Part shown: positions 183-62,857 of the stretch, piece after piece
How positions within the stretch are numbered: the stretch's first letter is position 1
How the letters are laid out: every line of letters starts with the position of its first letter
From: Urechidicola croceus
Lineage (GTDB): Bacteria > Bacteroidota > Bacteroidia > Flavobacteriales > Flavobacteriaceae
Reading direction: 5' to 3'
Assembly (NCBI RefSeq): GCF_001761325.1
Contig: NZ_CP017478.1
Coordinates: 316,001-380,000 of the forward strand
DNA length: 64,000 nucleotides
Position numbers and translations under genes: made by a program
Notes under the pieces: generated by a model
The model's input: the letters and a program-made list of their open reading frames with translations, nothing else
What the model was told of the DNA's origin: nothing
Databases searched by the model: none

Positions 183-1511
183 ATGAAGAGACTACCACTA
201 CATTGGAAAATAATGATAGGAATGGTATTAGGGATTTTATTTGGACTGCTTATGACAAGGTTTTCTACTGGTACACAGTTTGTTACTGATTGGATAAAAC
301 CATTAGGAGATATTTTTGTAAAAATGTTAAAACTAATTGCTGTACCATTAATAGTTGCTTCTTTGATAAAGGGTATTTCAGATTTAAAAGATATTTCGAA
401 ATTTAAAGTAATGGGATTGCGAACAATAGGAATATATATAGTTACTACCATAATTGCAATTTCAATAGGATTGACTTTAGTGAATACATTTAAGCCAGGT
501 AATGGTATTTCACAAGAGACAGTTCAAAATTTAAAAGATAAGTATGCTTCAAATACAAGTATTCAAGAAAAAATGGAAGAAGCAACTAAGCAAAAAGAAA
601 GTAGTCCGTTACAATTTATTGTTGACATGGTTCCTGACAATGCAATTTCGGCAATGGGCGATAATAAATTAATGCTGCAAGTTATTTTCTTTACTATATT
701 ATTAGGAATTAGTTTATTATTAATTGATGAAAAAAATGCAAAACCATTAAAAGAGTTTTTTGATTCTCTTAATGATGTTGTGCTCAAAATGGTTGATTTA
801 ATAATGCTATTAGCACCATATGCTGTTTTTGCTTTATTAGCTACAGTTGTTGTTACAGCTGATGATCCTGATGTGCTGTTAGCCTTATTGAAATATGCTG
901 GAGTTGTAGTTTTCGGACTGTTTTTAATGGTTGTTTTCTACTCTACTTTAGTGGGAGTTTATACAAAAAAGTCGCCTATTTGGTTTTTAACACAAATAGC
1001 ACCAGCGCAATTGTTAGCATTTTCAACTAGTAGTAGTGCCGCAACACTTCCAGTAACAATGGAAAGAGTAGAAGAACATATAGGAGTAGATAAGGAAGTC
1101 TCAAGTTTTGTATTGCCAGTTGGGGCTACAATTAATATGGATGGAACAAGTTTATATCAAGCAGTTGCCTCAGTATTTATAATGCAAGTTTTATGGCCTG
1201 AAGGATTAACTTTTAGCAATCAATTAATCATTATATTAACAGCATTAATGGCATCAATTGGCTCGGCAGCTGTACCAGGAGCAGGAATGGTAATGTTGGT
1301 AATAGTATTAGATAGTATTGGTTTTCCTGCAGATTTATTACCAATAGGTTTGGCATTAATATTTGCTGTTGATAGACCTCTTGATATGTGTAGAACAATG
1401 ATTAATGTTACTGGTGATGCAACAGTGTCAATGGTTGTGGCTAAATCAGTTGGTAAACTTGGTAAACCTCACGTACAAGAATGGGATGATAATTATGAAA
1501 AAGTTAAGTAG
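183..1511 (+). CDS. Dicarboxylate/amino acid:cation symporter (DAACS, GltP/GltPh family)
   Basis: An inner-membrane secondary transporter of 442 residues, the usual family length. It is expected to import acidic amino acids or C4-dicarboxylates with Na+ or H+. Visible family signatures are the serine-rich hairpin motif STSSSAATLP (281-290), NMDGTS (318-323), SAAVPGAG (361-368) and DRPLDMCRTMINVTGDA (397-413). The Arg at about 404 in this last motif corresponds to the residue that binds the side-chain carboxylate in GltPh, which favours aspartate, glutamate or dicarboxylates as substrate. The ATG at 183 starts a hydrophobic first helix. Its 3' end overlaps the next gene by 17 bases, so the two are probably co-transcribed. 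Confidence 0.9.
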   Translation: MKRLPLHWKIMIGMVLGILFGLLMTRFSTGTQFVTDWIKPLGDIFVKMLKLIAVPLIVASLIKGISDLKDISKFKVMGLRTIGIYIVTTIIAISIGLTLVNTFKPGNGISQETVQNLKDKYASNTSIQEKMEEATKQKESSPLQFIVDMVPDNAISAMGDNKLMLQVIFFTILLGISLLLIDEKNAKPLKEFFDSLNDVVLKMVDLIMLLAPYAVFALLATVVVTADDPDVLLALLKYAGVVVFGLFLMVVFYSTLVGVYTKKSPIWFLTQIAPAQLLAFSTSSSAATLPVTMERVEEHIGVDKEVSSFVLPVGATINMDGTSLYQAVASVFIMQVLWPEGLTFSNQLIIILTALMASIGSAAVPGAGMVMLVIVLDSIGFPADLLPIGLALIFAVDRPLDMCRTMINVTGDATVSMVVAKSVGKLGKPHVQEWDDNYEKVK

Positions 1512-1953
1512 CATAGAATCGTTCAATATTATTGGAATTTCAGTAAGAACAATCAATAGTGGTGGTCAGGCCGGTATTGATATTAAGAAACTTTGGGATA
1601 AATGGTTTTCAGAAAATTGCAGTTCTAAAATTTCTAATAAAATGAATGATGATATAATTAATCTGTATACAGACTATGATTCTGATGAATATGGATATTA
1701 TACAACAATTGTAGGTAATAAAGTAACAGATTTAGAATCGATTCCTGAAGGTTTTGTCGGGAAGTATATTCCTGCAACTAATTATGAAAAATTTATTTCA
1801 AAAGGGAAACTCCCAGAGTGTGTTTTAAATACTTGGGAAACTATTTGGAAATCAAAAAATAATAGAATTTATATTGCAGATTTTGACGTTTACCGTTTAG
1901 AAGAGATGAATCCAGAAAATGCAATTGTAGAAACTTTCGTTTCAGTAATTTAA
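1495..1953 (+). CDS. GyrI-like / AraC effector-binding domain protein
   Basis: A stand-alone cytoplasmic protein of 152 residues with the look of the GyrI-like small-molecule-binding fold. It has an N-terminal strand (FNIIGISVRT), a central YTDYDSDEYGYYTTIVG segment typical of these domains, an IPATNYEKF strand and a C-terminal IYIADFDVY strand followed by acidic residues. No DNA-binding domain is attached. I chose the ATG at 1495, inside the symporter gene, because the reading frame upstream belongs to the symporter's coding sequence; the overlap is 17 bases. Such proteins bind amphipathic ligands or act as enzymes on them; the ligand here is unknown. Confidence 0.7.
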   Translation: MKKLSSIESFNIIGISVRTINSGGQAGIDIKKLWDKWFSENCSSKISNKMNDDIINLYTDYDSDEYGYYTTIVGNKVTDLESIPEGFVGKYIPATNYEKFISKGKLPECVLNTWETIWKSKNNRIYIADFDVYRLEEMNPENAIVETFVSVI

Positions 1954-1967
1954 TAAAAATATATAAA

Positions 1968-2999
1968 ATGAATATTTGTTTTTTAATGTATCCTTGGGAG
2001 CAAATTGACCCTGAAAATGATACAAGTTTAACCTTAATTCACGAATGTGTAAAAAGAGGTCACGGAGTTGCGCTTTGTTCACCTGCAAACTTAACAATAC
2101 AAAATAGTGTAACGAATGCTTTTTGTAATGTTATTGGAAGAATGGATAAAGTCCCTTCTTCAATGAAATCTTTTTATAATAAAGCAAAATTAAGAGAAGA
2201 AATGTTGCCTTTAGCAGGTTTTGATGTGTTATTTTTTAGAGCCAACCCTCCATTAGACCCCTTGATGCTGAATTTTTTAGATTCAGTTAAAGATGATGTT
2301 TTTATAATGAATTCTTTACAAGGAATGCGAGAAGCTAATAATAAATTATATACTGCTGCATTTGGAGATTCACACAGTAATATTATTCCACCTACACATG
2401 TATCTAAAAACAAAAAATATTTAATTCGTCAAATTAAAGAATCAAAATCTGATAAAATGATTTTAAAACCATTGAATGGGTTTGGTGGTTCAGGTGTTAT
2501 TTTGATTGAAAAATCGGCAATGTCAAATGTCAATTCATTGTTAGATTTTTATATAACAAGTTCCGATGGAACTTCGAATTATGTTATTCTTCAAGAATAT
2601 ATCGAAGGTGCTGATCAAGGAGATATAAGAATCTTGATTTTAAATGGAGAACCTATTGGAGCTATGAAAAGAGTACCAGGAAGTGATGATCATCGCTCAA
2701 ATGTTTCTGCTGGCGGAACAGTACAAAGGCATACCTTGACAAAAGAAGAAAAAGCATTGTGTAAGCAAATCGGCCCAAAATTAGTCAATGACGGATTGTT
2801 TTTTGTTGGGATTGATGTGATTGGTGGTAAATTAGTTGAGGTTAATGTAATGAGTCCGGGAGGGATTACTTATATCAACAAAGTATATAAAACTAAAATT
2901 CAAGCAAAGGTTATTGATTTTGTTGAAAGTCAGGTTTTAGATAAGTTAGAAGCGTTTGATCGAAGATCAAGATTACGTAAAGCTGTTGAAGATGCTTAA
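1968..2999 (+). CDS. gshB: Glutathione-synthetase-type ATP-grasp ligase (GshB-like)
   Basis: A 343-residue cytoplasmic ATP-dependent ligase. GshB joins gamma-glutamylcysteine to glycine. Similarity to prokaryotic GshB runs along the whole length: the N-terminal MYPWEQIDPENDTSLTLI segment, the nucleotide-binding ILKPLNGFGGSGV loop, DIRILILNGEPIGAMKRVP, the SAGGT loop, and the Mg-binding VGIDVIGGKLVEVNVMSP segment near the C-terminus. The reading ends in ATGCTTAA, so its stop overlaps the start of the sulfurtransferase by 8 bases. No gshA is seen in the window, and the organism also carries bshB1 (bacillithiol). The true acceptor may therefore not be glycine. The fold is certain; the product is not. 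Confidence 0.82.
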   Translation: MNICFLMYPWEQIDPENDTSLTLIHECVKRGHGVALCSPANLTIQNSVTNAFCNVIGRMDKVPSSMKSFYNKAKLREEMLPLAGFDVLFFRANPPLDPLMLNFLDSVKDDVFIMNSLQGMREANNKLYTAAFGDSHSNIIPPTHVSKNKKYLIRQIKESKSDKMILKPLNGFGGSGVILIEKSAMSNVNSLLDFYITSSDGTSNYVILQEYIEGADQGDIRILILNGEPIGAMKRVPGSDDHRSNVSAGGTVQRHTLTKEEKALCKQIGPKLVNDGLFFVGIDVIGGKLVEVNVMSPGGITYINKVYKTKIQAKVIDFVESQVLDKLEAFDRRSRLRKAVEDA

Positions 3000-3831
3000 T
3001 ATTTCAGAACCTTTAGTTTCTGTAAATTGGTTAAATGAGCATATCAATAAGCCAAACCTAATAGTTATTGATGCAACGATGAAAAAGATAACTTGGGAGA
3101 AAAATGAATATGAAAATCAAGATATTCAGATTAAAAATGCTCGATTTTTAGATATAAAAAATGTGTTTTCTGATACTACAGCATCATTTCCAAATACAAT
3201 GTTGTCAGCTCAAGAATTTCAGGAACAAGCAAGGTTATTAGGCATTAATAAAGATTCTACTATAATTGTTTATGATGATATTGGAATATACACAAGCCCA
3301 AGAGTTTGGTGGATGTTTAAGTCTATGGGGCATGATAATATAGCAGTATTGGATGGAGGGCTTCCTATATGGGTAAAAGCAGGTTATACTACAGAAAAGC
3401 CTAAAAAATTTATTGGTAAGAAAGGAAATTTCATAGCAAATTTTAATCAAAATTTCTTCAAAAACTATACAAATGTTTTACAAGCGATTAATATAGGTAC
3501 TGAAATTTTAGATGCTAGATCTATAGATAGATTTGACGGTTCAAAACCAGAACCTAGAGAAGGATTAAGAAGCGGTCATATCCCAACTTCAAAAAATATT
3601 CATTATAACGATTTGTTAAATGGTACTTTATTAAAACCAGTTGACGATTTAAAAAAAATATTTGCTTCTAAATTAAAAAAAGAAGATGACATTATTTTTT
3701 CTTGTGGTTCCGGAATAACAGCCTGTATTTTGGCTTTAGGTGCAACAGTTTCAGGTTATAAAAAACTATCAGTTTATGATGGTTCTTGGACAGAATGGGG
3801 AAGTTTATCAGAGTTACCAATTGAAAAATAG
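2992..3831 (+). CDS. Sulfurtransferase with two rhodanese domains (thiosulfate/3-mercaptopyruvate type)
   Basis: A 279-residue protein that moves sulfane sulfur from a donor such as thiosulfate or 3-mercaptopyruvate to a thiol acceptor. It has an inactive N-terminal rhodanese domain (VSVNWLNEHI ... IVYDDIGIYTSPRVWWMFKSMG) and an active C-terminal one with the loop CGSGITAC. The nucleophile is Cys of about residue 238. CGSG(V/I)T loops are typical of the mercaptopyruvate type. I start it at the ATG at 2992, which overlaps the ligase stop (ATGCTTAA); this is translational coupling. A further upstream start at 2956 would lie entirely within the ligase gene. The next gene begins 5 bases after its stop. 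Confidence 0.85.
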   Translation: MLNISEPLVSVNWLNEHINKPNLIVIDATMKKITWEKNEYENQDIQIKNARFLDIKNVFSDTTASFPNTMLSAQEFQEQARLLGINKDSTIIVYDDIGIYTSPRVWWMFKSMGHDNIAVLDGGLPIWVKAGYTTEKPKKFIGKKGNFIANFNQNFFKNYTNVLQAINIGTEILDARSIDRFDGSKPEPREGLRSGHIPTSKNIHYNDLLNGTLLKPVDDLKKIFASKLKKEDDIIFSCGSGITACILALGATVSGYKKLSVYDGSWTEWGSLSELPIEK

Positions 3832-3836
3832 ATTTT

Positions 3837-4673
3837 ATGTTACGACTTTCTATTGATGAAATAATTGAAAAAATACAATTAGAAGAAATATTTGAGGCTG
3901 TTTCAGACGATTATTCTTTTACACTTAAGATTGATAAGTATGTACACTTTATTTGTGGAGCAGTACATGATGGACATCAATTTAGAAAATCACTTTGGAA
4001 TAACTGTTTGCACTCAGAATATGATCGCTGGTTTGAAGAAGACCCAGCAACTAAAGAAATGGTACAATCATTTCCAATAGTAATTGCTGGTTGTGATTCT
4101 CGTTTTGAATACGATTTAAACCGTGCTCCCGAAACTGCTATTTATACTGATGCTTGGGGAAAACAATTGTGGAAAAACCCGCTTCCTGATTCAGAAAGAA
4201 AATATAGTTTAGAAAAACACACAAATTTTTATAGAGTAGTTGATGCATTAGTTCGAAAAATTGAAGAAATATTTACTGTTGCTGTAGTTTACGACATGCA
4301 TTCATATAATTGGAAACGTTGGAATAGGGAAGTACCAACATTTAATTTGGGAACTGGAAATATTGATAATAACCGCTTTGGTGATGATGCAGAATCTTGG
4401 CGAAAATCATTATCAGAAATTAAATTACCACACAATATTAAAAGTACTTCATTAATCAATGATACCTTTCAAGGAAATGGATATTTCTTAAAATTTATTA
4501 CGTCAAAATTCAAAAATACATTAGTTTTGGCAACTGAAGTTAAGAAAGTTTATTGCGATGAATACATGCAAATTATGTATCCAGAAGTTGTACGTTCAAT
4601 AGAAGAACAATTAAAGGTTTTATTGCTTTTACATGCAACAAAATTTTATAGTAAACACAGAAAAGATTTATGA
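3837..4673 (+). CDS. N-formylglutamate amidohydrolase-like protein
   Basis: A 278-residue hydrolase of the N-formylglutamate amidohydrolase superfamily, which cleaves an N-acyl group from glutamate-like substrates with a metal ion. Likely metal and catalytic segments are VHDGHQFR (near 40), VYDMHSYNWKRW (near 155) and EVKKVYCDEY near the C-terminus. The first motif departs from the usual PHSG, so the substrate may differ from N-formylglutamate. It sits in a four-gene run with an ATP-grasp ligase, a sulfurtransferase and a QEGLA peptidase, and its stop overlaps the start of the latter (ATGA). A role in trimming or activating a small peptide is inference. Confidence 0.75.
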   Translation: MLRLSIDEIIEKIQLEEIFEAVSDDYSFTLKIDKYVHFICGAVHDGHQFRKSLWNNCLHSEYDRWFEEDPATKEMVQSFPIVIAGCDSRFEYDLNRAPETAIYTDAWGKQLWKNPLPDSERKYSLEKHTNFYRVVDALVRKIEEIFTVAVVYDMHSYNWKRWNREVPTFNLGTGNIDNNRFGDDAESWRKSLSEIKLPHNIKSTSLINDTFQGNGYFLKFITSKFKNTLVLATEVKKVYCDEYMQIMYPEVVRSIEEQLKVLLLLHATKFYSKHRKDL

Positions 4674-5815
4674 AGTTGACACAAGATAAAGCATTAATTG
4701 ATATAGATAATAAAATAGATTTTTTAGTAAAAAAAATTGAACTTTTAAACTACATCAACCCTACAAATATCCAAGAGCAAAAAGCACTATTTTTTGCCTC
4801 AAAATTTACAGTTGAACCAAAATTTGAATATCCACAAGTTGATTTTAACTCCTATGAACTGCAAAGAGCACTTTTTTCAGTTAAAATTGAAGAAATTGAT
4901 GATAAAGTACTTCGCAATTTATATGAGGACATTATTTATGAATACTCAGGTCTAATAGAATGTATTGATACGATTGGAAAAGGTAAAAAATTCTATTATA
5001 ATAGTCTACGATGTTTTGGTTCTCCAAAAGAAGTAGATGTTGAGAATGCTAAATTTATACTCCATTTTGAAAACGAAAATGTTTCATTAAAGTCCAAACA
5101 TCGTTTTAATGTCGATGAAACTGAAGAGCAATTTAGAGCATATTCTAAACGTTATGAATTTTCTTATTCTATAAAGCATTCAGATAAATTAACTGCTATT
5201 GCCATGGTTTTGAATAATGAACAATCTTTGATTTTAAATTCAAACTACACTTTTTCTCAGGCAGATATTGATATATTAACCAATCATGAGATTGGAGTCC
5301 ATATGGTTACTACTATGAACGCTTTACGTAACCCCTTGAAGATTTTTTCTCATGGATTCCCAAATAATACCGAAACACAAGAAGGCTTGGCAGTCTTTTC
5401 AGAATTTATGTCTGATAGTTTAAATATGAGTCGTCTAAAACGAATAGCATATCGTGTTTTGGCTGTTGATTCTTTAGCAAAAGGGTATACTTTCTCTAAG
5501 ACATTTAGAATGTTGTGCAACTATGGAATGTCAGAAGAAGGTGCATATACCGTATCAGTTCGTGTACATCGAGGTGGTGGATTTACCAAGGATTATTTAT
5601 ATTTAACAGGGCTTAGGAATATATATGACTTTTACAGCAAAGGTTTTGATTTAAAACCATTATTGACAGGAAAGGTTTCACTTGAATATATTGATTCAAT
5701 AGAATATTTAATTGATAACGGCTTTGCAGTTCCTTCAAAGCATATTACAGATTCTTATCAAAAGAACAGTAATACCAATAAAAATATAGCGTTTATCTTA
5801 GAAAATTTAAAATAA
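4670..5815 (+). CDS. QEGLA-motif metallopeptidase-like protein (DUF1704/tyrosine carboxypeptidase family)
   Basis: A 381-residue protein of the DUF1704 family, annotated in bacteria as flavohemoglobin-expression-modulating QEGLA protein. Its eukaryotic relatives (MATCAP/KIAA0895) are tubulin tyrosine carboxypeptidases with a HExxxH zinc motif. Here HEIGVH lies at residues 206-211 and QEGLA at 237-241, whose Glu238 is a plausible third ligand. The N-terminal 130 residues are helical and acidic. It overlaps the preceding gene by 4 bases and ends the run. Zinc peptidase activity on a short acidic peptide or C-terminal amino acid is inference from family and context. Bacterial substrates are not known to me. 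Confidence 0.78.
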   Translation: MKLTQDKALIDIDNKIDFLVKKIELLNYINPTNIQEQKALFFASKFTVEPKFEYPQVDFNSYELQRALFSVKIEEIDDKVLRNLYEDIIYEYSGLIECIDTIGKGKKFYYNSLRCFGSPKEVDVENAKFILHFENENVSLKSKHRFNVDETEEQFRAYSKRYEFSYSIKHSDKLTAIAMVLNNEQSLILNSNYTFSQADIDILTNHEIGVHMVTTMNALRNPLKIFSHGFPNNTETQEGLAVFSEFMSDSLNMSRLKRIAYRVLAVDSLAKGYTFSKTFRMLCNYGMSEEGAYTVSVRVHRGGGFTKDYLYLTGLRNIYDFYSKGFDLKPLLTGKVSLEYIDSIEYLIDNGFAVPSKHITDSYQKNSNTNKNIAFILENLK

Positions 5816-5864: not shown

Positions 5865-7268
5865 ATGAAAAACAATTACTTAATTTTATTATTCTGTATT
5901 TTTTTGTTAAACGCAAATGCACAAGAAGTTTCAGTAGAAAGTATTGCTACGGGCCTTACAAATCCTGTAGATATTCAAAATGCTGGAGATTCACGATTGT
6001 TTATTGTAGAAAAGTCGGGTATAATAAAAATTCTAAATGATGATTATAGTATAAACCCAATAAACTTTTTAAACATTGAACCATTAGTTTTTTCTATTGG
6101 TGGAGAACAAGGATTATTAGGTTTAGCATTTCATCCAAACTATTCTTCAAATGGCTACTTTTTTGTAAATTATATAGATCTAAATGGAAATACAGTGATT
6201 TCTAGATTTTCAGTGTCTTCTGATCCAAATATTGGTGATGAATCTACAGAAGAAGTCATCTTAAGAGTTGAACAACCTTATTCGAATCATAATGGAGGTC
6301 ATATTGAATTTGGATTGGATGGGTATTTATATATTGGCCTTGGTGATGGCGGTGATGGCGGTGATCCACAAGACAGAGCACAAAACGGAAATACGTTTTT
6401 AGGCAAAATGCTAAGAATAGATGTTGATAATGGTTTACCTTATTCTATTCCTTCTGACAATCCATTTATTGGTAATAGTGAAGTTTTAGATGAAATATGG
6501 GCATTAGGATTAAGAAATCCTTGGAAATTTTCATTTGAGCGACTAACTGGGCATTTAAGAATTGCTGATGTTGGACAAGGACAAAACGAAGAGGTAAATT
6601 TTGTGTTAAATGGAGTTGGTGGTCAAAACTATGGGTGGAGATGTTACGAAGGTAACTCAGAATTTAACACAACAGGTTTAAACTGTTCCGAAGGTGATTT
6701 TACATATCCAATAGCAGAATATAGCCATACGGCAGGTAGATGCTCTATAACTGGTGGATTTAGTTACTACAATACCGAATTTCCTGCTTTGTATGGATTG
6801 TACTTTTTTGCAGATTTTTGCACCAATGAAATAGGATCCATTGATGACTCTAATGAATTAAATTTTAGCGGTCCTTTTTTTAGTGGTGGGATTTCCACCT
6901 TTGGTTTAAATGTAGATGGCGATATTTTTGTTGCAACCTTAAATGATGGTAGTTCTAGGAGAAATACAGCTTCCATATATAAGATTATAGATGCGGCTTT
7001 AGGTGTAGATCAATACAATCTCAATTCTTCCATAGCAATTTTTCCAAATCCTGTAAATGATCTACTACATTTTAATATTTCTAATACTGATGTTCAAATT
7101 TCAGAGGTTAGAATTTATGATACTATTGGAAAAAATATACTAAATAAAACTGTTGTTGGTGAAGAAGAAAATTACCTAGATGTTTCATCAATTTCAGAAG
7201 GAATATATCAAATGAAAATATACTTAACTAATGGAAATATAGGAAATAAAAAAATAGTGGTTCGTTAA
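5865..7268 (+). CDS. Secreted PQQ-dependent sugar dehydrogenase-like protein with type IX secretion tail
   Basis: A 467-residue protein with a signal peptide (MKNNYLILLFCIFLLNANA, cut before QE). It carries a six-bladed glucose/sorbosone dehydrogenase propeller: GLTNPVDIQ, GEQGLLGLAFHP, NHNGGHIEFGLDGYLYIGLGDGG, GLRNPWKFSFE and a C-rich DVGQGQNEEVNF...NYGWRCYEG stretch. The family oxidises aldoses with PQQ. About the last 75 residues (IAIFPNPVNDLLHFNI ... GNKKIVVR) form a type A T9SS C-terminal domain, so the enzyme is expected to be exported through the outer membrane. It overlaps the convergent next gene by 4 bases with no terminator between them. Confidence 0.85.
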   Translation: MKNNYLILLFCIFLLNANAQEVSVESIATGLTNPVDIQNAGDSRLFIVEKSGIIKILNDDYSINPINFLNIEPLVFSIGGEQGLLGLAFHPNYSSNGYFFVNYIDLNGNTVISRFSVSSDPNIGDESTEEVILRVEQPYSNHNGGHIEFGLDGYLYIGLGDGGDGGDPQDRAQNGNTFLGKMLRIDVDNGLPYSIPSDNPFIGNSEVLDEIWALGLRNPWKFSFERLTGHLRIADVGQGQNEEVNFVLNGVGGQNYGWRCYEGNSEFNTTGLNCSEGDFTYPIAEYSHTAGRCSITGGFSYYNTEFPALYGLYFFADFCTNEIGSIDDSNELNFSGPFFSGGISTFGLNVDGDIFVATLNDGSSRRNTASIYKIIDAALGVDQYNLNSSIAIFPNPVNDLLHFNISNTDVQISEVRIYDTIGKNILNKTVVGEEENYLDVSSISEGIYQMKIYLTNGNIGNKKIVVR

Positions 7269-42602: not shown

Positions 42603-43889
42603 ATGAAAAACATAAAGATTGCAATCATTGGATTAGGGTATGTCGGTTTGCCGCTAGCTGTTGAATTTTCTAAGAAATATAAGGTAATAGGATTTGATAT
42701 AAATACTGATAGAATCAATGATTTGAACAAAGGTTTGGATCATACATTTGAAGTTGATTCTAAGGATTTACAAAGTGTTTTGTCAAATGTTTCTAATAAA
42801 AAAGGATTGTCATTGACTCATAGATTAGATGAGTTGTCCTCAGCCAATTTTTACATAATAACAGTTCCAACACCAATAGATGAAAATAAAAAACCAGATT
42901 TAAGACCGCTTTATGGTGCGAGTAATACTGTAGGTAAGGTTTTAAAAAAGGGAGATATTATAGTCTATGAATCTACAGTTTATCCTGGAGCAACGGAGGA
43001 GGAATGTGTGCCGATTCTAGAAGAAGTTTCAGGTTTAGAATTCAACAAGGATTTTTTTGTAGGATACTCACCTGAACGTATCAATCCTGGAGATAAGGCT
43101 AGAACTGTTACCAAAATATTAAAAGTTACTTCAGGTTCAACTCCTGAAATTGCAGATAAAGTTGATGAAGTTTATAGTTCTATTATAACGGCAGGAACTC
43201 ATAAAGCATCATCAATTAAAGTTGCAGAGGCTGCAAAAGTAATAGAGAATGCACAACGAGACATTAATATTGCGTTTGTAAATGAGTTGTCTAAAATTTT
43301 TCGTTTGATGAACATAGACACAAATGAAGTATTGGAAGCCGCAGGTACAAAATGGAATTTTCTTCCATTTAAACCAGGATTGGTTGGTGGACATTGTATT
43401 GGAGTAGATCCTTATTATCTAGCACAGAAAGCAATTAGTTTAGGATATAGCCCAGAAATAATTTTATCTGGAAGAAGATTGAATGATAGTATGGGTGCAT
43501 TTGTAGCAGTAGAAACTGTTAAGATGATGGTAAAAAATGATATTCCTGTCAACAATGCTGATGTTTTAGTATTAGGAATAGCATTTAAAGAGAATTGTCC
43601 AGATATAAGAAATTCGAGAGCAATTGATATAATTACTGAATTGAGATCTTATAATATTAATGTAGATGTTTTCGATCCTTGGGCAACTGTTGCTGCGGTA
43701 AAACATGAATATGATATTGATTTGATTTCGTCATTGAAGGATGTTGATAAAAAATATCAAGCAATTATTATTGCTGTTGCACACAATGAATTTAAAGAAT
43801 TAGATTTAGAAAAATACTTGGACAATGCTCATATTATCTTTGATGTAAAAGCAATGTTACCAAAAGAAAAATCACATATAAGATTGTAA
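42603..43889 (+). CDS. Nucleotide sugar dehydrogenase (UDP-N-acetyl-hexosamine 6-dehydrogenase type)
   Basis: A 428-residue NAD-dependent enzyme that oxidises C6 of a UDP-sugar to a uronic acid. It has the N-terminal [17 protein letters not shown] Rossmann motif, [27 protein letters not shown], the catalytic Cys in [12 protein letters not shown] (about 262) and the [18 protein letters not shown]-closing segment. Its length and the [11 protein letters not shown] segment favour the WbpA/TviB group (UDP-GlcNAc or UDP-GalNAc) over UDP-glucose dehydrogenase. It shares TAATG with the epimerase gene, so the two are translationally coupled. Confidence 0.88.
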
Positions 43890-44941
43890 TGAAAAAAGTA
43901 TTAGTTACAGGAGCAGCAGGCTTCATAGGATTTCATTTGTCAAAAAAATTAGTTCAAGAAGGATTTGAAGTAATAGGAATTGATAATATCAATGATTATT
44001 ACGATCCGAATTTAAAATTAGCGCGATTAAAAGAGTTGAATATTAACACTTCAGTTATTGAAGATAATGAAGAAAATTACGGAGATATAACCTTTGTTAA
44101 ATTGGATTTAAAGGATTTAGACGAGTTAAAGTCTTTATTTGAATTACATAAATTTGATTATGTTGTTAATTTAGCAGCACAAGCAGGAGTAAGGTATTCG
44201 TTAATTAACCCTCATTCTTATGTAGATAATAATATTACTGGTTTTTTAAATTTATTAGAATGTTGTAGAGCATTTCCAATCGAACATTTAGTTTTTGCTT
44301 CATCTAGTTCGGTGTATGGGTTAAGTGAAGAAATACCTTTTCATGAAGATAATTCCACAGATCATCCATTAGCAATGTATGCGGCTAGTAAAAAGGCCAA
44401 TGAAATGATGGCACATTCATATGCTCATTTATACGATATTCCAAGTACAGGTTTGCGCTTTTTTACAGTTTATGGACCATGGGGAAGACCCGATATGGCT
44501 TTATACCTTTTTACTGATGCAATGTTTAAAGATGAAGAATTTTATATCTTTAACAACGGTGAAATGAGTCGTGACTTTACATATATAGATGATATCGTTG
44601 AAAGTATAAAGCGACTAATTCCAAAACCGCCTAAAAGAGGTAATCCAGAATTTGACATAAAACATCCAAAACCATCAAAAAGCACTGCTCCATATCAAAT
44701 ATTCAATATTGGAAACAATAGCCCTGTAGCGTTGATGGATTTTGTTGATATTTTAGAAAAAGTTTTAGGAAAAGAAGGAAAAAAAGTATTTAAACCAATG
44801 CAGCCTGGAGATGTAACATCTACCTATGCCAATGTTGAAAGTTTATTTGAATATATAGATTTTAAACCATCTACAAAGTTGGAAGATGGTGTAAAAGCAT
44901 TTGTTGATTTTTATATGAATTATAAAAAAAATAAAAATTGA
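43889..44941 (+). CDS. NAD-dependent epimerase (UDP-glucuronate 4-epimerase type)
   Basis: A 350-residue short-chain dehydrogenase-type epimerase. It has VTGAAGFIGFHLSKKLV (NAD), the GIDNINDYYDPNLKLARL segment typical of UDP-glucuronate and UDP-N-acetylglucuronate 4-epimerases, YVVNLAAQAGVRYSL, the Ser of SSSSVYG, YxxxK as YAASK, and FFTVYGPWGRPDMAL. It probably turns the sugar made by the preceding dehydrogenase into its galacto epimer, giving a UDP-galacturonate-type donor for the polysaccharide. Confidence 0.87.
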   Translation: MKKVLVTGAAGFIGFHLSKKLVQEGFEVIGIDNINDYYDPNLKLARLKELNINTSVIEDNEENYGDITFVKLDLKDLDELKSLFELHKFDYVVNLAAQAGVRYSLINPHSYVDNNITGFLNLLECCRAFPIEHLVFASSSSVYGLSEEIPFHEDNSTDHPLAMYAASKKANEMMAHSYAHLYDIPSTGLRFFTVYGPWGRPDMALYLFTDAMFKDEEFYIFNNGEMSRDFTYIDDIVESIKRLIPKPPKRGNPEFDIKHPKPSKSTAPYQIFNIGNNSPVALMDFVDILEKVLGKEGKKVFKPMQPGDVTSTYANVESLFEYIDFKPSTKLEDGVKAFVDFYMNYKKNKN

Positions 44942-44952
44942 TATATTTTTAA

Positions 44953-45795
44953 ATGGAATTACAAACTAGAATATATCAAAAACAGAATACTAAAAGTCTT
45001 TGGACCTTAATTAAAGAAAGTTTAAATGATATCTATACCTCTAGGTTTTTAGCAAAACAATTAACAATAAGAGATATAAAGGCACAGTACAGGCAATCAT
45101 ATTTTGGTATTTTATGGGCGTTTATTGGACCTTTAACTACTGCTTTAGTTTGGATTTTTTTAAATAATTCTGGAACCATAAAATTATCTGATACAGGTAT
45201 TCCATATCCAGTTTATGTTTTTTCTGGTACTTTATTATGGTCTATTATGATTGAAGCAATTAACTCACCTATGTTAAGTACCAATTCTGCAAGAAGTATT
45301 ATCTCTAAAATTAATTTTCCAAAAGAGGCATTGATAATTTCTGGTATTTATAAATTATTGTTTAACAGTAGTATTAAAATTGCTTTATTAGTGATTTTTT
45401 TACTTATTTATCAAATTCCTATCAGTTGGACAATATTACTATTTCCATTTACATTATTAGCAATAATAATTTTTGGTACAACATTAGGCTTATTTATTAC
45501 TCCACTAGGATTATTATATACTGATGTTTCTAAAGCAATATCTTTTACTTTCCGTTTTATTATGTATTTAACACCTGTTATTTATGTAGTGCCAAAAACA
45601 GGAATAATGAAAACGTTGATGGAACTAAACCCATTAACGCCTTTACTATTAACAGCACGTGATGTTTTGGTAGGCCAACCACCACAATACTTAACATATT
45701 ATTGTGTGATACTTAGTTTAAGTTTTTTGCTATTATTGGTTGCTTTAGCAATTTATAGAGTTTCAATACCAATTTTAACCGAAAGAATAGGGTAG
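44953..45795 (+). CDS. wzm: ABC-2 polysaccharide export permease (Wzm type)
   Basis: A 280-residue inner-membrane permease with six helices and the LAKQLTIRDIKAQYRQSYFGILWAF N-terminal motif of O-antigen/teichoic acid exporters. It pairs with the ATPase just downstream (one base between the genes). It moves finished, lipid-linked polysaccharide across the inner membrane, so the product of this locus is assembled in the cytoplasm rather than by Wzx/Wzy. Confidence 0.9.
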   Translation: MELQTRIYQKQNTKSLWTLIKESLNDIYTSRFLAKQLTIRDIKAQYRQSYFGILWAFIGPLTTALVWIFLNNSGTIKLSDTGIPYPVYVFSGTLLWSIMIEAINSPMLSTNSARSIISKINFPKEALIISGIYKLLFNSSIKIALLVIFLLIYQIPISWTILLFPFTLLAIIIFGTTLGLFITPLGLLYTDVSKAISFTFRFIMYLTPVIYVVPKTGIMKTLMELNPLTPLLLTARDVLVGQPPQYLTYYCVILSLSFLLLLVALAIYRVSIPILTERIG

Positions 45796-45796
45796 T

Positions 45797-47014
45797 ATGG
45801 AAAATGAAATATTGGTGAGAGTAGAAGGAGTTTCTAAGAAATTTTCTAAAGATTTAAAAACAGGACTTAAATACGGTGTAAAAGATGTATTTAGTAATAT
45901 TTTTGGTAAAAATAATTCTAAAAATGAGTTAAGATCCAAAGAATTTTGGTCGTTAAAAGATATTAATTTTGAGTTAAGAAGAGGTGAGTGTTTAGGTTTG
46001 ATAGGTCATAATGGTGCAGGTAAATCAACACTATTAAAAATATTGAATGGTCTTATTAATCCTGATGAAGGTAAAGTAACGATCAAAGGTAGAGTTGGAG
46101 CGTTGATTGAGTTAGGAGCAGGTTTTAATCCAATACTTACTGGACGAGAAAATATATATAATAATGGAGCAGTTTTAGGGTTTACTAAAGCTGAAATTGA
46201 TGCAAAAGTTGAAGAAATTATTGATTTTGCCGAAATAAGAGAATTTATAGATATGCCAGTACAAAATTATAGTAGTGGTATGAAGGTAAGATTAGGGTTT
46301 GCTGTCGCATCTCAAATGGAACCTGATATTTTACTAATTGATGAAGTACTTGCGGTTGGTGATGTTGGGTTTAGAGTAAAATGTTTGAACAGAATTTCAG
46401 AATTAATAAATCAATGTGCCGTTATTTTTGTTAGCCATTCAATGCCTCAAGTTGCTAGAGTCTCTACGGATGTCATCTTGTTAGCACTTGGCCGTATAGA
46501 ATATTTAGGAAATAACATTGGTAATGGAATTAAACTATATCAAGATGCGTTTCAACTTGAAGAAAAATCAATTATAGGAAATGGTATAAAAATTAATAAA
46601 CTAAAGTTTAATGGAGTTGAAAATAATTCAAAAAATTATATAGATTGGGGAAGTAAAATAAATATATCTTTTGAATTTGAAAATATATCAAATAATAAAA
46701 ACTTCTATATTAATTTAAGTTTTGTTGATTCAAATTTAAATGGAATTTTGATACTTACAATTAAACCTAAAAATATCCAGTTAAATGAGATTAAAAAAGG
46801 AAAAATTTCTATAGATACAATAAATAGATTAGTCCCTGGAAAATATACTTTAAATATTGGTTTTATAGAGCGATTATCTGAAGAGGGATATAAATATGGT
46901 GAAAATATTGTTATATATAGAAATTACCTAACAATAAATGTTATTAATGGAGATTTAGTAGGGAGTATACCAGTTAAATTACATTGTAATTGGGATATTG
47001 AAAAAATATCTTAA
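45797..47014 (+). CDS. wzt: ABC polysaccharide export ATPase (Wzt type) with C-terminal carbohydrate-binding-like domain
   Basis: A 405-residue ATPase. Walker A GHNGAGKST is near 73-81, signature YSSGMKVRLGFAVA and Walker B ILLIDEVLAVGD follow, as in Wzt proteins, together with an LIELGAGFNPILTGRENIYNNG loop. Residues beyond about 255 form a beta-rich domain (IKINKLKFNGVENN...) resembling the Wzt C-terminal domain that recognises a terminal cap of the glycan. The DNA becomes clearly more AT-rich at this domain boundary (near base 46580). The cap could be added by the sulfotransferase or methyltransferase nearby (inference). Confidence 0.9.
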   Translation: MENEILVRVEGVSKKFSKDLKTGLKYGVKDVFSNIFGKNNSKNELRSKEFWSLKDINFELRRGECLGLIGHNGAGKSTLLKILNGLINPDEGKVTIKGRVGALIELGAGFNPILTGRENIYNNGAVLGFTKAEIDAKVEEIIDFAEIREFIDMPVQNYSSGMKVRLGFAVASQMEPDILLIDEVLAVGDVGFRVKCLNRISELINQCAVIFVSHSMPQVARVSTDVILLALGRIEYLGNNIGNGIKLYQDAFQLEEKSIIGNGIKINKLKFNGVENNSKNYIDWGSKINISFEFENISNNKNFYINLSFVDSNLNGILILTIKPKNIQLNEIKKGKISIDTINRLVPGKYTLNIGFIERLSEEGYKYGENIVIYRNYLTINVINGDLVGSIPVKLHCNWDIEKIS

Positions 47015-47051
47015 GATTTTGCTAATTATTATATTAAGAGAGAAAATTAAA

Positions 47052-48041
47052 ATGTGGTTTTTTAAAAAGAAAAAAGAAAAAACAAACTTAACTGTTTTTG
47101 CATCGACAATTATTAGAAATGTAGAGGGTGATGAGTATTCGGGTTACTTGTATAAGATAAATTGGGATTCAGGAAATATATTAAAGAAAATTCCTATTCT
47201 TTCTCAAAATAAAGAAACTTGGAATGAACGAGGAGGAAATAGAGGAGGAAGAGGAGTTTCAATTTTTAAAGACAGAGTATATTTAGCAACAGCAGTAACT
47301 ATTTACATATATGATTTTGAATTAAATTTATTAGGTGAAATTACAAATGATTTATTTAAAGGATTACATGAGTTATTTATTGTAAATGATGGGATTTGGG
47401 TTACATGTACTTTACATGATCTTATTTTAAAGGTTGATTTTGAAGGGAATACTATGTTTGAATGGTGGGGAAGTAACTCTAAATATTTACAAACTTCTTT
47501 AGGGTTTGAATCAAGAGAACTGAATCTCGATTTTAGCTTTCCAAAAGAGAATTTTGCTGAACATTATGATCGCTATTCTAAAGAAGAACGATTACATATA
47601 AATACTGTATGGGTAGATGATAATAATGTTTACATATTAGCTAATAGAAAAAATGCACTAATTAAAATTTATCCAAATGAAAAAATTGTATTTCAAGATA
47701 ATAATTTAATGAGCCCTCATAATGGAATACTAAGTATTGAAGGTAATTTTATTCTAAACAATACACAAAAGCAAAAACTTCATATTTATTCAAAAGAAGG
47801 AAGGTTTAAGCGCAGTATAAATACTAAAATTTACAAAGAAGACTTATCAAGTCAATTTGCTAAATCTGGATGGCAAAGAGGGTTAAATAATTATAAAAAA
47901 GGAAAAGTTCTTATTGGTACATCTCCAGCTACAATTTTTGAATTAGATTATAATAAAGGTAAATTAGGTAAAAAAATTAAATTAGAAGAAAAAACTACTC
48001 ATTGTATTCATGGTTTGACTTCATGTATAATATCAGAATAA
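47052..48041 (+). CDS. Uncharacterised propeller-like protein of the polysaccharide locus
   Basis: A 329-residue cytoplasmic protein without signal peptide. It is built from repeated short strands with GxxxxDGIWVTxTxxxxLxxxDxEG-like spacing (GLHELFIVNDGIWVTCTLHDLILKVD, NTVWVDDNNVYILANRKNALIKIY, HNGILSIEGNFILNNTQKQKLHIY). That is the rhythm of a six- or seven-bladed beta-propeller. The N-terminus has a basic cluster (MWFFKKKKEKTN). I start it at the ATG at 47052, 37 bases after wzt; an in-frame TTG at 46998 would overlap wzt. It directly precedes the sulfotransferase (6-base gap). No function is known to me. Confidence 0.6.
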   Translation: MWFFKKKKEKTNLTVFASTIIRNVEGDEYSGYLYKINWDSGNILKKIPILSQNKETWNERGGNRGGRGVSIFKDRVYLATAVTIYIYDFELNLLGEITNDLFKGLHELFIVNDGIWVTCTLHDLILKVDFEGNTMFEWWGSNSKYLQTSLGFESRELNLDFSFPKENFAEHYDRYSKEERLHINTVWVDDNNVYILANRKNALIKIYPNEKIVFQDNNLMSPHNGILSIEGNFILNNTQKQKLHIYSKEGRFKRSINTKIYKEDLSSQFAKSGWQRGLNNYKKGKVLIGTSPATIFELDYNKGKLGKKIKLEEKTTHCIHGLTSCIISE

Positions 48042-48047
48042 GTAAAT

Positions 48048-48746
48048 ATGTTTTCAATATTTAAACGTAATAATTTTGTTAAAGAATCATACGAAATTCT
48101 TGATCGTGAAATATGGAATAAATACTTATCAAAAAAAGATTTTCCATATTTGATAAGTTTTCCAAGAACAGGCAGTCATTGGTTGAGAAATGTAATGGAA
48201 CTTTATTTTGAAAAACCTTCTTTGATGAGAGTTTTTTTTTATAAAAACCCAACCGATTTTACTTGTTTTCATATCCATGATGAAGATTTATTATTTAATG
48301 AAAAAAGAAGAGTTATATATTTGTATAGAAATCCTGTTGAAACAATTTATTCTCAAATGAATTTTTATGATGAAGATTTAAATGATAATGTAAGGATTAA
48401 ATACTGGGCAGTTTTATACGGGAAGCATTTAGAAAAGTGGTTGTTAAAAGATGAAAGGTCTATTGAAAAGGTGGTTTTGAGTTATGAGAATTTAAAAAAT
48501 AATTTTGATTTAGAGTTTAGAAAACTTTCTGATTTTTTAAATGAACCTTTTGATGTTAATAAATTAGAAAAAGCAAAAAAGAATGCATCAAAAGATAAAA
48601 TTAAAAAAAAGGTTACAGATGATTTAAGGGTAATAAAATCCACAAATAATTATGATGAAAAACGAAAATTATTTATAGAAATGAACACTTCAACTATTGA
48701 AGATTGTATATTACAAGTTAATCAAAAATTAGTTAATTTTTTATAA
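48048..48746 (+). CDS. Sulfotransferase-domain protein
   Basis: A 232-residue PAPS-dependent sulfotransferase. The 5'-phosphosulfate-binding loop reads SFPRTGSHWLRN (about 37-48), and the 3'-phosphate-binding segment reads VIYLYRNPVETIYSQ. It sulfates a sugar hydroxyl, presumably on the polysaccharide built by this locus. Neighbours are the propeller-like protein and a GT2 glycosyltransferase. Sulfation of surface glycans is common in marine bacteria. The PAPS-supplying genes are not in the window. Confidence 0.82.
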   Translation: MFSIFKRNNFVKESYEILDREIWNKYLSKKDFPYLISFPRTGSHWLRNVMELYFEKPSLMRVFFYKNPTDFTCFHIHDEDLLFNEKRRVIYLYRNPVETIYSQMNFYDEDLNDNVRIKYWAVLYGKHLEKWLLKDERSIEKVVLSYENLKNNFDLEFRKLSDFLNEPFDVNKLEKAKKNASKDKIKKKVTDDLRVIKSTNNYDEKRKLFIEMNTSTIEDCILQVNQKLVNFL

Positions 48747-48750
48747 ATAA

Positions 48751-49539
48751 ATGATTTCAGCAGTAGTAGTTAGTCATAATGAAGGTCATTTGTTAGATGC
48801 CTGTTTAAAATCTATTTTATTTTGTGATGAAATTATAGTTGTAGACTTAGAATCAACTGATAATACAAAAGAAATTGCTGAAAAATATGAGGCAAAGTAT
48901 ATTTATCATCAAAAAGTTCCAGTTGTAGAAATTATTCACACATGGATACAGGATAAAACAAAATATGATTGGATATTAATTACTGATCCAGATGAAGTTT
49001 GCTCTAATGATTTAAGTAAAGAATTGCTAGAGATATTGCCTAGTGTACCTTTAGATATAGGATTAATTGATGTTCCATGGAAATTTTATTTTGGTAATCA
49101 TTTATTAAAAGGAACTCAATGGGGAGGCGTTCAAAGAAGAGTTTTTTTAGTTAATAAAAACAGATTTATTTTTACTAAAGAAGTACACAGAGGAAGACAT
49201 CTAAAAAAAGGATATAAACCTTATATAGTGAAAAATAAAGGAAATAATTTTGTACACCATTTTTGGATGCAAAATTTAAGACAATTAACTGCAAAACATA
49301 AAAGGTATTTAAACAGAGAAGCAGAATCTAGATATAATTCAGGTGAAAGAAGTACAATAAAACAAATACTTAAAACTCCATTAAATGAATTCTATTCTTC
49401 TTTTTGGATTAAGAATGGTTTTAAAGACGGTTTTACAGGTTTTTTTTTAAGTTTGTTTTGGGCATGGTATGAAACAAAAGCTAAGTTAAAATTATATATA
49501 TATTCAAATAAGATAAAACAAAATAATTTAATGTTTTAA
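48751..49539 (+). CDS. Glycosyltransferase family 2 (WaaE-like)
   Basis: A 262-residue GT-A enzyme with ISAVVVSHNEGHLLDACLKSI, EIIVVDLESTDNTKEIA and the DPD metal motif in LITDPDEVC. The short form with SILFCDEIIVVD resembles WaaE/KdtX core transferases. The gene begins 4 bases after the sulfotransferase stop. Sugar donor and acceptor are unknown. Confidence 0.85.
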   Translation: MISAVVVSHNEGHLLDACLKSILFCDEIIVVDLESTDNTKEIAEKYEAKYIYHQKVPVVEIIHTWIQDKTKYDWILITDPDEVCSNDLSKELLEILPSVPLDIGLIDVPWKFYFGNHLLKGTQWGGVQRRVFLVNKNRFIFTKEVHRGRHLKKGYKPYIVKNKGNNFVHHFWMQNLRQLTAKHKRYLNREAESRYNSGERSTIKQILKTPLNEFYSSFWIKNGFKDGFTGFFLSLFWAWYETKAKLKLYIYSNKIKQNNLMF

Positions 49540-49547
49540 TAATTATA

Positions 49548-50531
49548 ATGATAAGTATAGTTTTACCTACATACAATAGTATAGAGTTTTTAGAAGAAAG
49601 AGTAGATACGATTTTAAATCAAACATTAAGTGATTGGGAATGTATTATTATAGATGGTAACTCAACTGATGGAACTTGGGAATATTTAAACACTGTTACG
49701 TTAAAAGATAATCGTTTTAAAATGTACCAATTTACTCCTAGAGGAGTTTACAATGCTTGGAATATTGGTGTAAAAAAAGCAATAGGAGAATATATTTACT
49801 TTGCAACTAGTGATGATACAATGAAATTAAATTGTTTAGAAGAATTTCTAAAAAGTTTTGAATTAGCACCAAGTTGTAGTATTGCACATTGTAATTTGAA
49901 AATTATTGATGAAAATTCAGAAAAAATTCGAGATTTAGATTGGAAAACTTTTCCAGCCCAGCAATACTTTGGAGAGTTAACAAATAAATACCATATTAGA
50001 AAGGCTCCCCTTGTAGGGCTTTTATATGCAACACATCAAACAATTATACATTCTTTTACTCAAATTCTAATTAAGAAATCAGTTTTTGAAAATTGTGGTT
50101 ATTTTTTAGAAAATCTTGGACCAACTGCAGATTTAGAATGGGGAATGCGAATTGGCTTAACAGAAAACATTATTCATATACCTCATGAGTTGGCCACGTG
50201 GAGAGTGCATAAAAATCAATTAACTGTTCAGAAAACTAGTTTTAATTCAAAATATAAGTTGATTAAATTAATGGTTTTAGCAATTGAAAATTCTAAATGT
50301 TCAAAGAAGATTAAACAAAATAAAAATCTACTTCTAGGGTTAGAATCATATCTATTATTTTCTAAAACACCATTTTTAGAAAAAATTTTAAAAAGACCAT
50401 TTTTAAATATTGTTAAATTGAATTTTTTAAATAAAGATTTTAAAAAATCATTATTTAGCCGAAGAAAATACCAATCTTTTTTGCAAAAAGAGTTGAAAAT
50501 TATAGACAAAAATTTAATTGAACTAATTTAA
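49548..50531 (+). CDS. Glycosyltransferase family 2
   Basis: A 327-residue GT-A enzyme: ISIVLPTYNSIEFLEERVDTI, ECIIIDGNSTDGTWEY and TSDDTMKLN with the Asp-Asp metal motif. A C-terminal LGPTADLEWGMRIG motif precedes the ATWRVH segment. Long basic C-terminal helices follow. The next gene starts 14 bases later. Confidence 0.85.
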   Translation: MISIVLPTYNSIEFLEERVDTILNQTLSDWECIIIDGNSTDGTWEYLNTVTLKDNRFKMYQFTPRGVYNAWNIGVKKAIGEYIYFATSDDTMKLNCLEEFLKSFELAPSCSIAHCNLKIIDENSEKIRDLDWKTFPAQQYFGELTNKYHIRKAPLVGLLYATHQTIIHSFTQILIKKSVFENCGYFLENLGPTADLEWGMRIGLTENIIHIPHELATWRVHKNQLTVQKTSFNSKYKLIKLMVLAIENSKCSKKIKQNKNLLLGLESYLLFSKTPFLEKILKRPFLNIVKLNFLNKDFKKSLFSRRKYQSFLQKELKIIDKNLIELI

Positions 50532-50545
50532 TAAAGTCATAATAA

Positions 50546-51643
50546 ATGATAATTAGATATACTTTATTTAATGATGATGAATTTGGTAATGGTGCTTTAA
50601 AGCGGACTCATCAAATTTCTACTATTTTATCAAAAGTTGATAGAGAAGTGGTAACAGTTTCTAAATATCCAAAATTGCATTTAGGAAAAAGTGTTATAAG
50701 TAGATTGAAGATTGGTAGAAATTATTATTCCTTTTTTGGAATAAAAATGTTTAATAGAAAGAAATTAGTTGAAAAAGCTATTGACATAATTTCATGGAAG
50801 CAATGGCTATTAGAACTTCAAAAAAATGAAAAAAAACTTATAGTTGTATATGAACTATCTTATTATGCAGATTATTCTTTAATATTTGCATGCGTTCAAT
50901 TAGGAATTAAAATTATTGGTTTACCGCATAATTTAGAATCTTTAGTTTATAGACAAAAATCCATACTGTCTAATAAAATAGCACCTAATTGGTTTAATGA
51001 AGAAATTAAATTATTAGGATTGTTCTCAGAAATATATACAATATCAAGAGAAGAACAATGGTTATTAAATTTGTATAATATAAATGCAAATTATCTACCT
51101 TATTACCCATCCAAAAAAGTAATTAAAAACTGTTTGAAAATTAGAAAACTTAGGACGTCAACTGATAAAGATTTTATTTTGAGTCTAGGTTCAGCTTCAA
51201 ATCCGCCAACTTTGGAAGGATTTAAAGAACTAGTAAGCTATTATGAAGAATCAAAAATAAAAGAAGATTTAGTTATTGCTGGTTTTGATACTGAAAGATT
51301 AAAAGAACACTTTACAAATTTCCCTCCAAATATAAAATTAAAAGGATCTTTAAATAATAGTGAATTAGAATTAGCACTTGTAACTTGTAAGGCTATTATT
51401 ATTTATCAAAAACCATCTACTGGTGCACTTACCAAAATCCCAGAATTATTATTATGTGGTATTCCAGTAATTTGTAATAACGTTACAGCTAGAACTTATT
51501 TTAATTTAGAAGGAGTTACACTCTTTAATTCTAAAAATCAACTTAAAACTATTTTAAAAAACAAGTTAGTTGTTAGTAAAATGAAAGATATATCTTTTGA
51601 TTATTATTATGACTTTTTAAAAGAATTTAAAATAAAAATATAA
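50546..51643 (+). CDS. GT-B-fold glycosyltransferase (GT4-like)
   Basis: A 365-residue protein with two Rossmann-like halves. The N-terminal half ends with KIIGLPHNLESLV; the C-terminal half starts FILSLGSASNPPTLEGFKELV and has PSTGALTKIPELLLCGIPVICNN, a donor-binding pattern with the family's acidic residue replaced (PELLLCG for the usual E...A.G). It is the only non-GT2 glycosyltransferase with this fold in the block. Donor unknown. Confidence 0.72.
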   Translation: MIIRYTLFNDDEFGNGALKRTHQISTILSKVDREVVTVSKYPKLHLGKSVISRLKIGRNYYSFFGIKMFNRKKLVEKAIDIISWKQWLLELQKNEKKLIVVYELSYYADYSLIFACVQLGIKIIGLPHNLESLVYRQKSILSNKIAPNWFNEEIKLLGLFSEIYTISREEQWLLNLYNINANYLPYYPSKKVIKNCLKIRKLRTSTDKDFILSLGSASNPPTLEGFKELVSYYEESKIKEDLVIAGFDTERLKEHFTNFPPNIKLKGSLNNSELELALVTCKAIIIYQKPSTGALTKIPELLLCGIPVICNNVTARTYFNLEGVTLFNSKNQLKTILKNKLVVSKMKDISFDYYYDFLKEFKIKI

Positions 51644-51652
51644 TTAATAGCA

Positions 51653-52402: not shown

Positions 52403-52405
52403 ATT

Positions 52406-53242: not shown

Positions 53243-53251
53243 TTTATTCAG

Positions 53252-54070: not shown

Positions 54071-54092
54071 ATTTAATTATTATGTTTGAAAA

Positions 54093-56119: not shown

Positions 56120-56169
56120 TAAGTTTTTAAACGATTAATTTGTTGTTATAATAATTATATAAATTAAAT

Positions 56170-58932: not shown

Positions 58933-58970
58933 CATTGTAATTTTAGAATTTGTAAATAGAATAGAACTCA

Positions 58971-59993: not shown

Positions 59994-60002
59994 TATAATT
60001 AT

Positions 60003-62856: not shown

Positions 62857-62857
62857 A

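Follow-up and report, generated by a model that had tools for sequence, protein, structure and literature searches.

The window analysed here is a 64,000-nucleotide stretch of the Urechidicola croceus genome (Flavobacteriaceae; assembly GCF_001761325.1, contig NZ_CP017478.1, positions 316,001 to 380,000 of the forward strand), and our subject is a run of plus-strand genes near its start. An initial annotation, made from the letters alone, had singled out four genes between positions 1968 and 5815. These encode a PRK12458-type ATP-grasp ligase (1968–2999; GSH-S_ATP 186.5 bits, PRK12458 465.5 bits), a two-domain rhodanese resembling 3-mercaptopyruvate sulfurtransferase (2992–3831; two stretches of PF00581), an FGase-family zinc hydrolase (3837–4673; PF05013 46.7 bits, cut-off 28.9) and a MATCAP/QEGLA metallopeptidase (4670–5815; PF08014 327.3 bits, cut-off 27). 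Their positions were confirmed on the sequence, as were the 8-base overlap between ligase and sulfurtransferase (ATG at 2992), the 5-base gap between sulfurtransferase and FGase, and the 4-base overlap between FGase and MATCAP; Pfam and NCBIfam profile scans bore out the family names of all four. The extent of the run was drawn too short, as two more genes lie ahead of the ligase on the same strand, the first for an SDF symporter and the second GyrI-like. Comparison across genomes indicated that the conserved core consists of three enzymes, not four (ligase, FGase and MATCAP, hereafter the trio), and that their order and linkage are far beyond chance.

Near relatives were sampled by searching genomes for the MATCAP protein; 234 stretches encoded a relative, and the best 80 of these were used. 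These loci (numbered L; genomes are numbered G) are mostly labelled Flavobacteriaceae or its genera, a few only Flavobacteriia, Bacteroidia or Bacteroidetes, and, being picked by similarity, are mutually non-independent. FGase was located upstream of MATCAP in all 80; 72 loci had at least 4.5 kb of upstream sequence, and 70 of them carried the ligase there as well. The phylum was sampled with 198 evenly drawn Bacteroidota genomes, including the window's own; since this genome was in the draw and L020 and L086, whose contigs share a length of 136573, are apparently the same locus, the two samples are not fully independent. MATCAP (PF08014) was found in 12 of the 198 genomes and an FGase homologue in 11, beside MATCAP in ten of these and alone in the exception, G128. 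Ligase matches of any strength, mostly weak, occurred in 69 genomes. Close homologues, defined as those of at least 119 bits (the next score was 68.5), occupied 15 places in 13 genomes, and 13 of these places, in 11 genomes, adjoined MATCAP. The two others (G194 and G076) adjoined a gshA-like gene, which was tested as GCS2 at L111 and recognized by eye at L110. The genome overlap with MATCAP had a hypergeometric P value of 3.5e-14 for FGase (kinship ignored, own genome included) and 3.5e-17 for the ligase (two true-GshB genomes left out, kinship ignored). Locus L023 (G053) has no homologue of the window FGase and instead carries an AstE/AspA-type gene 87 bases past the ligase; its presence in the place of FGase points to an acyl-Glu or acyl-Asp bond. 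Co-occurrence no better than chance had been set beforehand as the finding that would speak against the initial annotation, and the three core families were found to co-occur.

The trio was also encountered outside Bacteroidota. A MATCAP match was present in 127 plasmid records, and 12 loci were read, two of them (L106 and L115) nearly identical. FGase, a long MATCAP and the ligase followed one another in all eight Rhizobiaceae/Phyllobacteriaceae plasmid loci read; six of these were annotated as N-formylglutamate amidohydrolase, QEGLA protein (617–632 aa) and glutathione synthase or synthetase, and the other two were recognized by profiles. Photobacterium loci L108 and L118 encode an FGase–MATCAP fusion overlapped by a ligase frame (60% identical to the window ligase). 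Such a fusion also adjoins the ligase in the Bacteroidota locus L016 and occurs in Vibrio (L104), and a Pseudoalteromonas MATCAP lies without partners near betaine genes.

Trees were reconstructed for the ligase and MATCAP; of the 80 Flavobacteriaceae loci, only 10 were entered. The unrooted ligase tree, which carried a long-branch warning, comprised three well-supported groups: GshB (3 rows), type 1 (18, including the window) and type 2 (14). Both trio types were well separated from the three true GshB rows; because the tree is unrooted, long branches meet in it and only these 10 loci entered, sister status of the two is not assignable. The MATCAP tree, with similar warnings, gathered the 14 long proteins into a single group. 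Their 14 loci are exactly those of the type-2 ligases, as would fit a shared substrate. The N-terminal 240 residues of one long MATCAP (L017:8643–10481) aligned with FGase at an hhalign probability of 66%, so this domain may, though not firmly, be a decayed FGase domain. L017 (7528–13224) and L018 (6478–11378) each stack two versions of the module: a type-1 ligase and FGase come first, and a long MATCAP and a second ligase, of type 2, come after.

The window ligase comprises GSH-S_N and GSH-S_ATP domains. It passed PRK12458 (465.5 bits, cut-off 408) and failed TIGR01380 (239.8 bits, below 299), as did all ten trio ligases scanned, and the two GshB proteins adjoining gshA-like genes showed the reverse pattern. 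It also fell below the RimK model (rimK_fam 96.1 bits, cut-off 143.4), with GshB models scoring higher. In an alignment with only three GshB rows, E. coli GshB positions 86, 125, 160, 208, 210, 225, 233, 273, 281 and 283 were kept in trio ligases, and positions 87, 124, 127, 204, 215, 221, 234 and 288 were switched in both trio types. The PRK12458-type ligase would thus form an amide bond, and its candidate substrate pair is other than gamma-glutamylcysteine and glycine. Elsewhere, the databases label such ligases glutathione synthase.

The two hydrolases were assigned by profile and fold. For FGase, PF05013 scored over its cut-off and the AlphaFold model (predicted template-modelling score, pTM, 0.87) had the FGase fold, with the FGases 2q7s and 2odf as top matches (E 7e-10 to 3e-7), followed by metallocarboxypeptidases, some known and some putative, which superposed poorly and scored E 4e-4 or weaker. 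These matches came from the fold search alone, as searching the PDB by FGase sequence yielded no true match. It failed the HutG N-formylglutamate deformylase model TIGR02017 (17.2 bits, cut-off 278.75). MATCAP carries HExxxH as HEIGVH (206–211) and QEGLA at 237–241, and H206, E207, H211 and E238, the third-ligand Glu, were invariant in 34 of 34 aligned sequences; together with the PF08014 score this places it in the family. It fell short of the QEGLA hypothetical-equivalog model TIGR02421 (313.3 bits, cut-off 338.65). Its model (pTM 0.90) matched human MATCAP (7z6s/7z5g, best E 2e-9), which was matched in sequence too and is its closest solved relative. PA3697 is presumably the QEGLA protein from which the family took its name. 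It controls fhp, as cited in a passage of PMC8070244.

We predict, with rather more confidence than doubt, that the run encodes a self-contained ligase/trimming module of one amide-bond former and two zinc hydrolases, probably cytoplasmic. Judging from the conserved GshB residues, the ATP-grasp enzyme would activate a carboxylate as an acyl-phosphate and join an amino acid, with an acidic or N-acyl-acidic compound the most likely acceptor. MATCAP, a zinc carboxypeptidase by family and fold, would then take off the residue that was added or that stands at the C-terminus. This would expose an acidic or N-acyl-acidic residue, whose amide the FGase-type hydrolase, judged on the same grounds, would cut. 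The two zinc enzymes would thereby trim one chain in sequence from its C-terminal side, which would explain their repeated fusion or adjacency; this arrangement agrees with a single compound being cut in sequence, as does the AstE/AspA-type gene that replaces FGase at L023. The module may govern the amount or chain length of a single short and probably acidic amide-linked compound, for which in Flavobacteriaceae Glu or Asp could be brought in by the SDF symporter. A small N-acyl-acidic dipeptide, possibly an osmolyte, ranks as a somewhat likelier product than a protein tail. In passages of a salt comparison of Photobacterium damselae, a QEGLA gene was 27.5-fold higher at 1% than at 3% NaCl, and rimK was among the top genes (PMC10308900); together with the hypo-osmotic failure of RloA mutants described below, we take this link to osmotic change as a lead only. 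The initial annotation had proposed the building, sulfurating and trimming of a short peptide or thiol, and of this a build-and-trim module still appears the best reading of the core enzymes.

Several observations weigh against this build-and-trim reading. The window ligase slightly passes the glutathione-synthase equivalog model PRK05246 (281.2 bits, cut-off 272), as do all five type-1 ligases scanned, the window's among them (278–290 bits), and GCS2-family proteins occur in G130 and G171, both among the 11 module genomes. The parts can work alone, as indicated by a partnerless FGase homologue (L109), partnerless MATCAPs (L013, in G186, and L113) and the Vibrio fusion, which has no ligase within 6–7 kb. 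The match between ligase and MATCAP types is not strict, since no short MATCAP accompanies the type-1 ligase of L017 and L018. Identity of the FGase model to solved FGases is only 13–15%, and the P. damselae expression record concerns a species other than those of L108 and L118.

A thiol pathway would give the sulfurtransferase a part: the ligase would make glutathione or a related thiol, the sulfurtransferase would add sulfane sulfur, and the hydrolases would recycle the product. It is favoured by the GSH-S domains, by the PRK05246 score just over its cut-off and by the rhodanese itself, which is of the 3-mercaptopyruvate type and is present in 70 of 76 related Flavobacteriaceae-type loci. 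This rhodanese carries a CGSGITA loop and has the E. coli-type 3-mercaptopyruvate sulfurtransferase 1urh as its best solved match, but with the equivalog model PRK11493 it scored 217.9 bits, below the cut-off of 250. We take the CGSG(I/V)T active-site loop to mark 3-mercaptopyruvate sulfurtransferases. However, the rhodanese adjoins the core in only 3 of the 11 Bacteroidota module genomes (G000, G088 and G103), and the 12 proteobacterial loci read all lack it there; it is an accessory common only in Flavobacteriaceae loci, so that sulfuration is not supported as a step of the common pathway. GCS2 (PF04107) and Glu_cys_ligase (PF04262) were not detected in the window genome with profiles whose controls rang, nor was PF08886 there or in the 12 MATCAP genomes, a weak negative as its control was silent. 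Among those 12, GCS2 was found in three (G130, G171 and G186) and Glu_cys_ligase in none. Since no glutamate–cysteine ligase was detected in the window genome, glutathione is unlikely as the product, and the earlier suggestion of a glutathione-like thiol lost ground. The GshB proteins beside gshA-like genes score 416 and 428 with PRK05246, far over the window's 281, and GshB position 288 and others are switched. A glutathione or persulfide pathway was rejected as the common theme, since the sulfurtransferase does not stay with the core beyond Flavobacteriaceae-type loci and the window genome yielded no glutamate–cysteine ligase; the module product is probably not glutathione, and we regard the thiol pathway as very improbable.

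The first gene of the run bears on another alternative, a salvage operon in which the hydrolases cut imported acidic peptides, the ligase serves some other step and the grouping reflects co-regulation in nutrient uptake. This gene (183–1511, plus strand; PF00375 413.8 bits) encodes an SDF-family symporter of the glutamate/aspartate or C4-dicarboxylate type, with GltP as its best NCBIfam match (261.6 bits, under the cut-off of 638). It lies upstream of the ligase, heading the operon, in 63 of the 68 related loci with enough sequence, as salvage would suggest, and is present in six of the 11 module genomes (G000, G088, G103, G118, G130 and G134), all of the window's own family. Yet no homologue of this importer was found near the core in L016, L019, L021, L022, L023 or the proteobacterial loci, with L023, of the same family as the window, lacking the rhodanese as well, and the pairing of type-2 ligases with long MATCAPs fits a shared substrate; salvage seems highly doubtful to us. 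Editing of a protein tail, in which the ligase would add residues to a bacterial protein at its C-terminus for MATCAP and a carboxypeptidase-like FGase to remove, much as RimK/RimB act on S6 and TTL, MATCAP and CCP on tubulin, appears unlikely. In its favour are human MATCAP as the closest solved relative, the metallocarboxypeptidases that follow the FGases in the fold search, CCP5 weakly among them (rank 18, E 0.018), and a sub-threshold match to PF03133 (TTL) in two type-2 ligases. Against this stand the GSH-S_N domain of a ligase for which GshB models outscore RimK models, the lack of a candidate protein substrate, and the separate FGase, which favours small N-acyl amino acids. TTL and CCP act in eukaryotic tubulin-tail editing. 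A bolder form of the idea, which we hold to be distinctly improbable, would make the module a bacterial forerunner of the tubulin-tail code, the ligase writing and MATCAP and the carboxypeptidase-fold hydrolase erasing C-terminal residues of some cellular peptide or protein in a reversible cycle, with eukaryotic MATCAP taken from such a bacterial pair.

The neighbourhood of the glutathione genes used for comparison held an unexpected pairing: in L111 (8147–11539) the gene between gshB and the gshA-like gene matched the DNase II family strongly (244 bits), and in L110 (5446–8881) two shorter frames occupy its place.

The GyrI/Cass2-like effector-binding protein (1495–1953, plus strand; PF14526 68.8 bits, PF06445 49.8 bits), whose start codon was inferred and whose Pfam scan used the longer frame 1405–1953, overlaps the SDF gene by 17 bases and is separated from the ligase by 14 bases; with a counterpart at the same place in 3 of the 80 related loci (L073, L088 and L101), it is a probable optional operon member. 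A 108-aa gene lies between rhodanese and FGase in 39 of the 80 related loci (e.g. L044:7782–8108), its protein matching no Pfam family above cut-off; the window has no room for it because the gap there is 5 bases. Downstream, a GSDH/type IX secretion system gene (5865–7268) begins 49 bases past the end of MATCAP, and was rejected as a module member with no homologue in 91 related loci. Scans for promoters and terminators gave 46 promoter-like sites (shuffle mean 45.4) and two terminator-like sites (shuffle mean 2.6), counts so near the shuffled means that they do not help to place the operon borders. Further along, positions 43889–63805 hold 21 plus-strand open frames of at least 200 aa, most almost touching, and the guanine–cytosine content falls to 21% in one 2-kb step, below the remaining window.

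Among known systems, the module would most likely join the ligase/peptidase pairs RimK/RimB and RloC/RloA as one more of their kind; in these, according to passages of PMC12239564, an ATP-grasp protein is likewise encoded next to a peptidase. RimB and RloA are described there as cleaving poly-glutamate, and mutants lacking all three RloA peptidases as failing in hypo-osmotic stress, with rescue by loss of RloB or RloC (PMC12239564). Unlike those systems, whose peptidases are retropepsin-like aspartic according to these passages, the module has two zinc-enzyme families and a GshB-type ligase with a GSH-S_N domain; the Pfam scan found no aspartic peptidase among eight window proteins, and with its GSH-S-type ligase the module does not classify as a RimK/RimB or RloC/RloA pair. 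Tubulin-tail editing in eukaryotes, by TTL/TTLL, CCP and MATCAP (TMCP; PMC10499314), employs the same enzyme classes, namely an ATP-grasp ligase, a carboxypeptidase of the MATCAP family and a zinc hydrolase with the carboxypeptidase fold, but the module ligase is GshB-like and not TTL, and any fold kinship between FGase and CCP is distant at best. The ligase shares domains and many invariant residues with GshB; it differs in its PRK12458 subfamily and its switched residues, no GshA was detected in the window genome, and a MATCAP gene adjoins 13 of the 15 close homologues in the 198-genome draw. The operon for the osmolyte N-acetylglutaminylglutamine amide (NAGGN; asnO–ngg–peptidase) likewise joins an amide-bond former and a peptidase around an N-acylated dipeptide, but its families, as given in passages of PMC8070244, are an asparagine synthase, a GNAT-type synthetase and a glutamyl aminopeptidase. 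The NAGGN synthetase model showed only weak ATP-grasp similarity to a GshB (14.9 bits), and, unlike the NAGGN operon, the window operon has no acetyltransferase gene.

Searches of the open literature, with subscription papers outside their reach, turned up no account of the module, and to that extent it still stands as the candidate for an undescribed system that the initial annotation saw in it. The 2009 work of Iyer et al. reportedly deals with the gene neighbourhoods of ATP-grasp enzymes, and the trio may already appear there. Looking under PA3697 or Sinorhizobium locus tags brought up no functional study of the trio, and the ATP-grasp neighbourhood passages of PMC8939145 and PMC4431377 mention neither DUF1704 nor formylglutamate.

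Three database names, glutathione synthase, N-formylglutamate amidohydrolase and flavohemoglobin expression-modulating protein, thus hide one conserved module. For the bacterial relatives of MATCAP it names candidate partners; it also supplies a few enzymes to put through a defined assay, and allows the bacterial background of an enzyme that edits tubulin to be tested.

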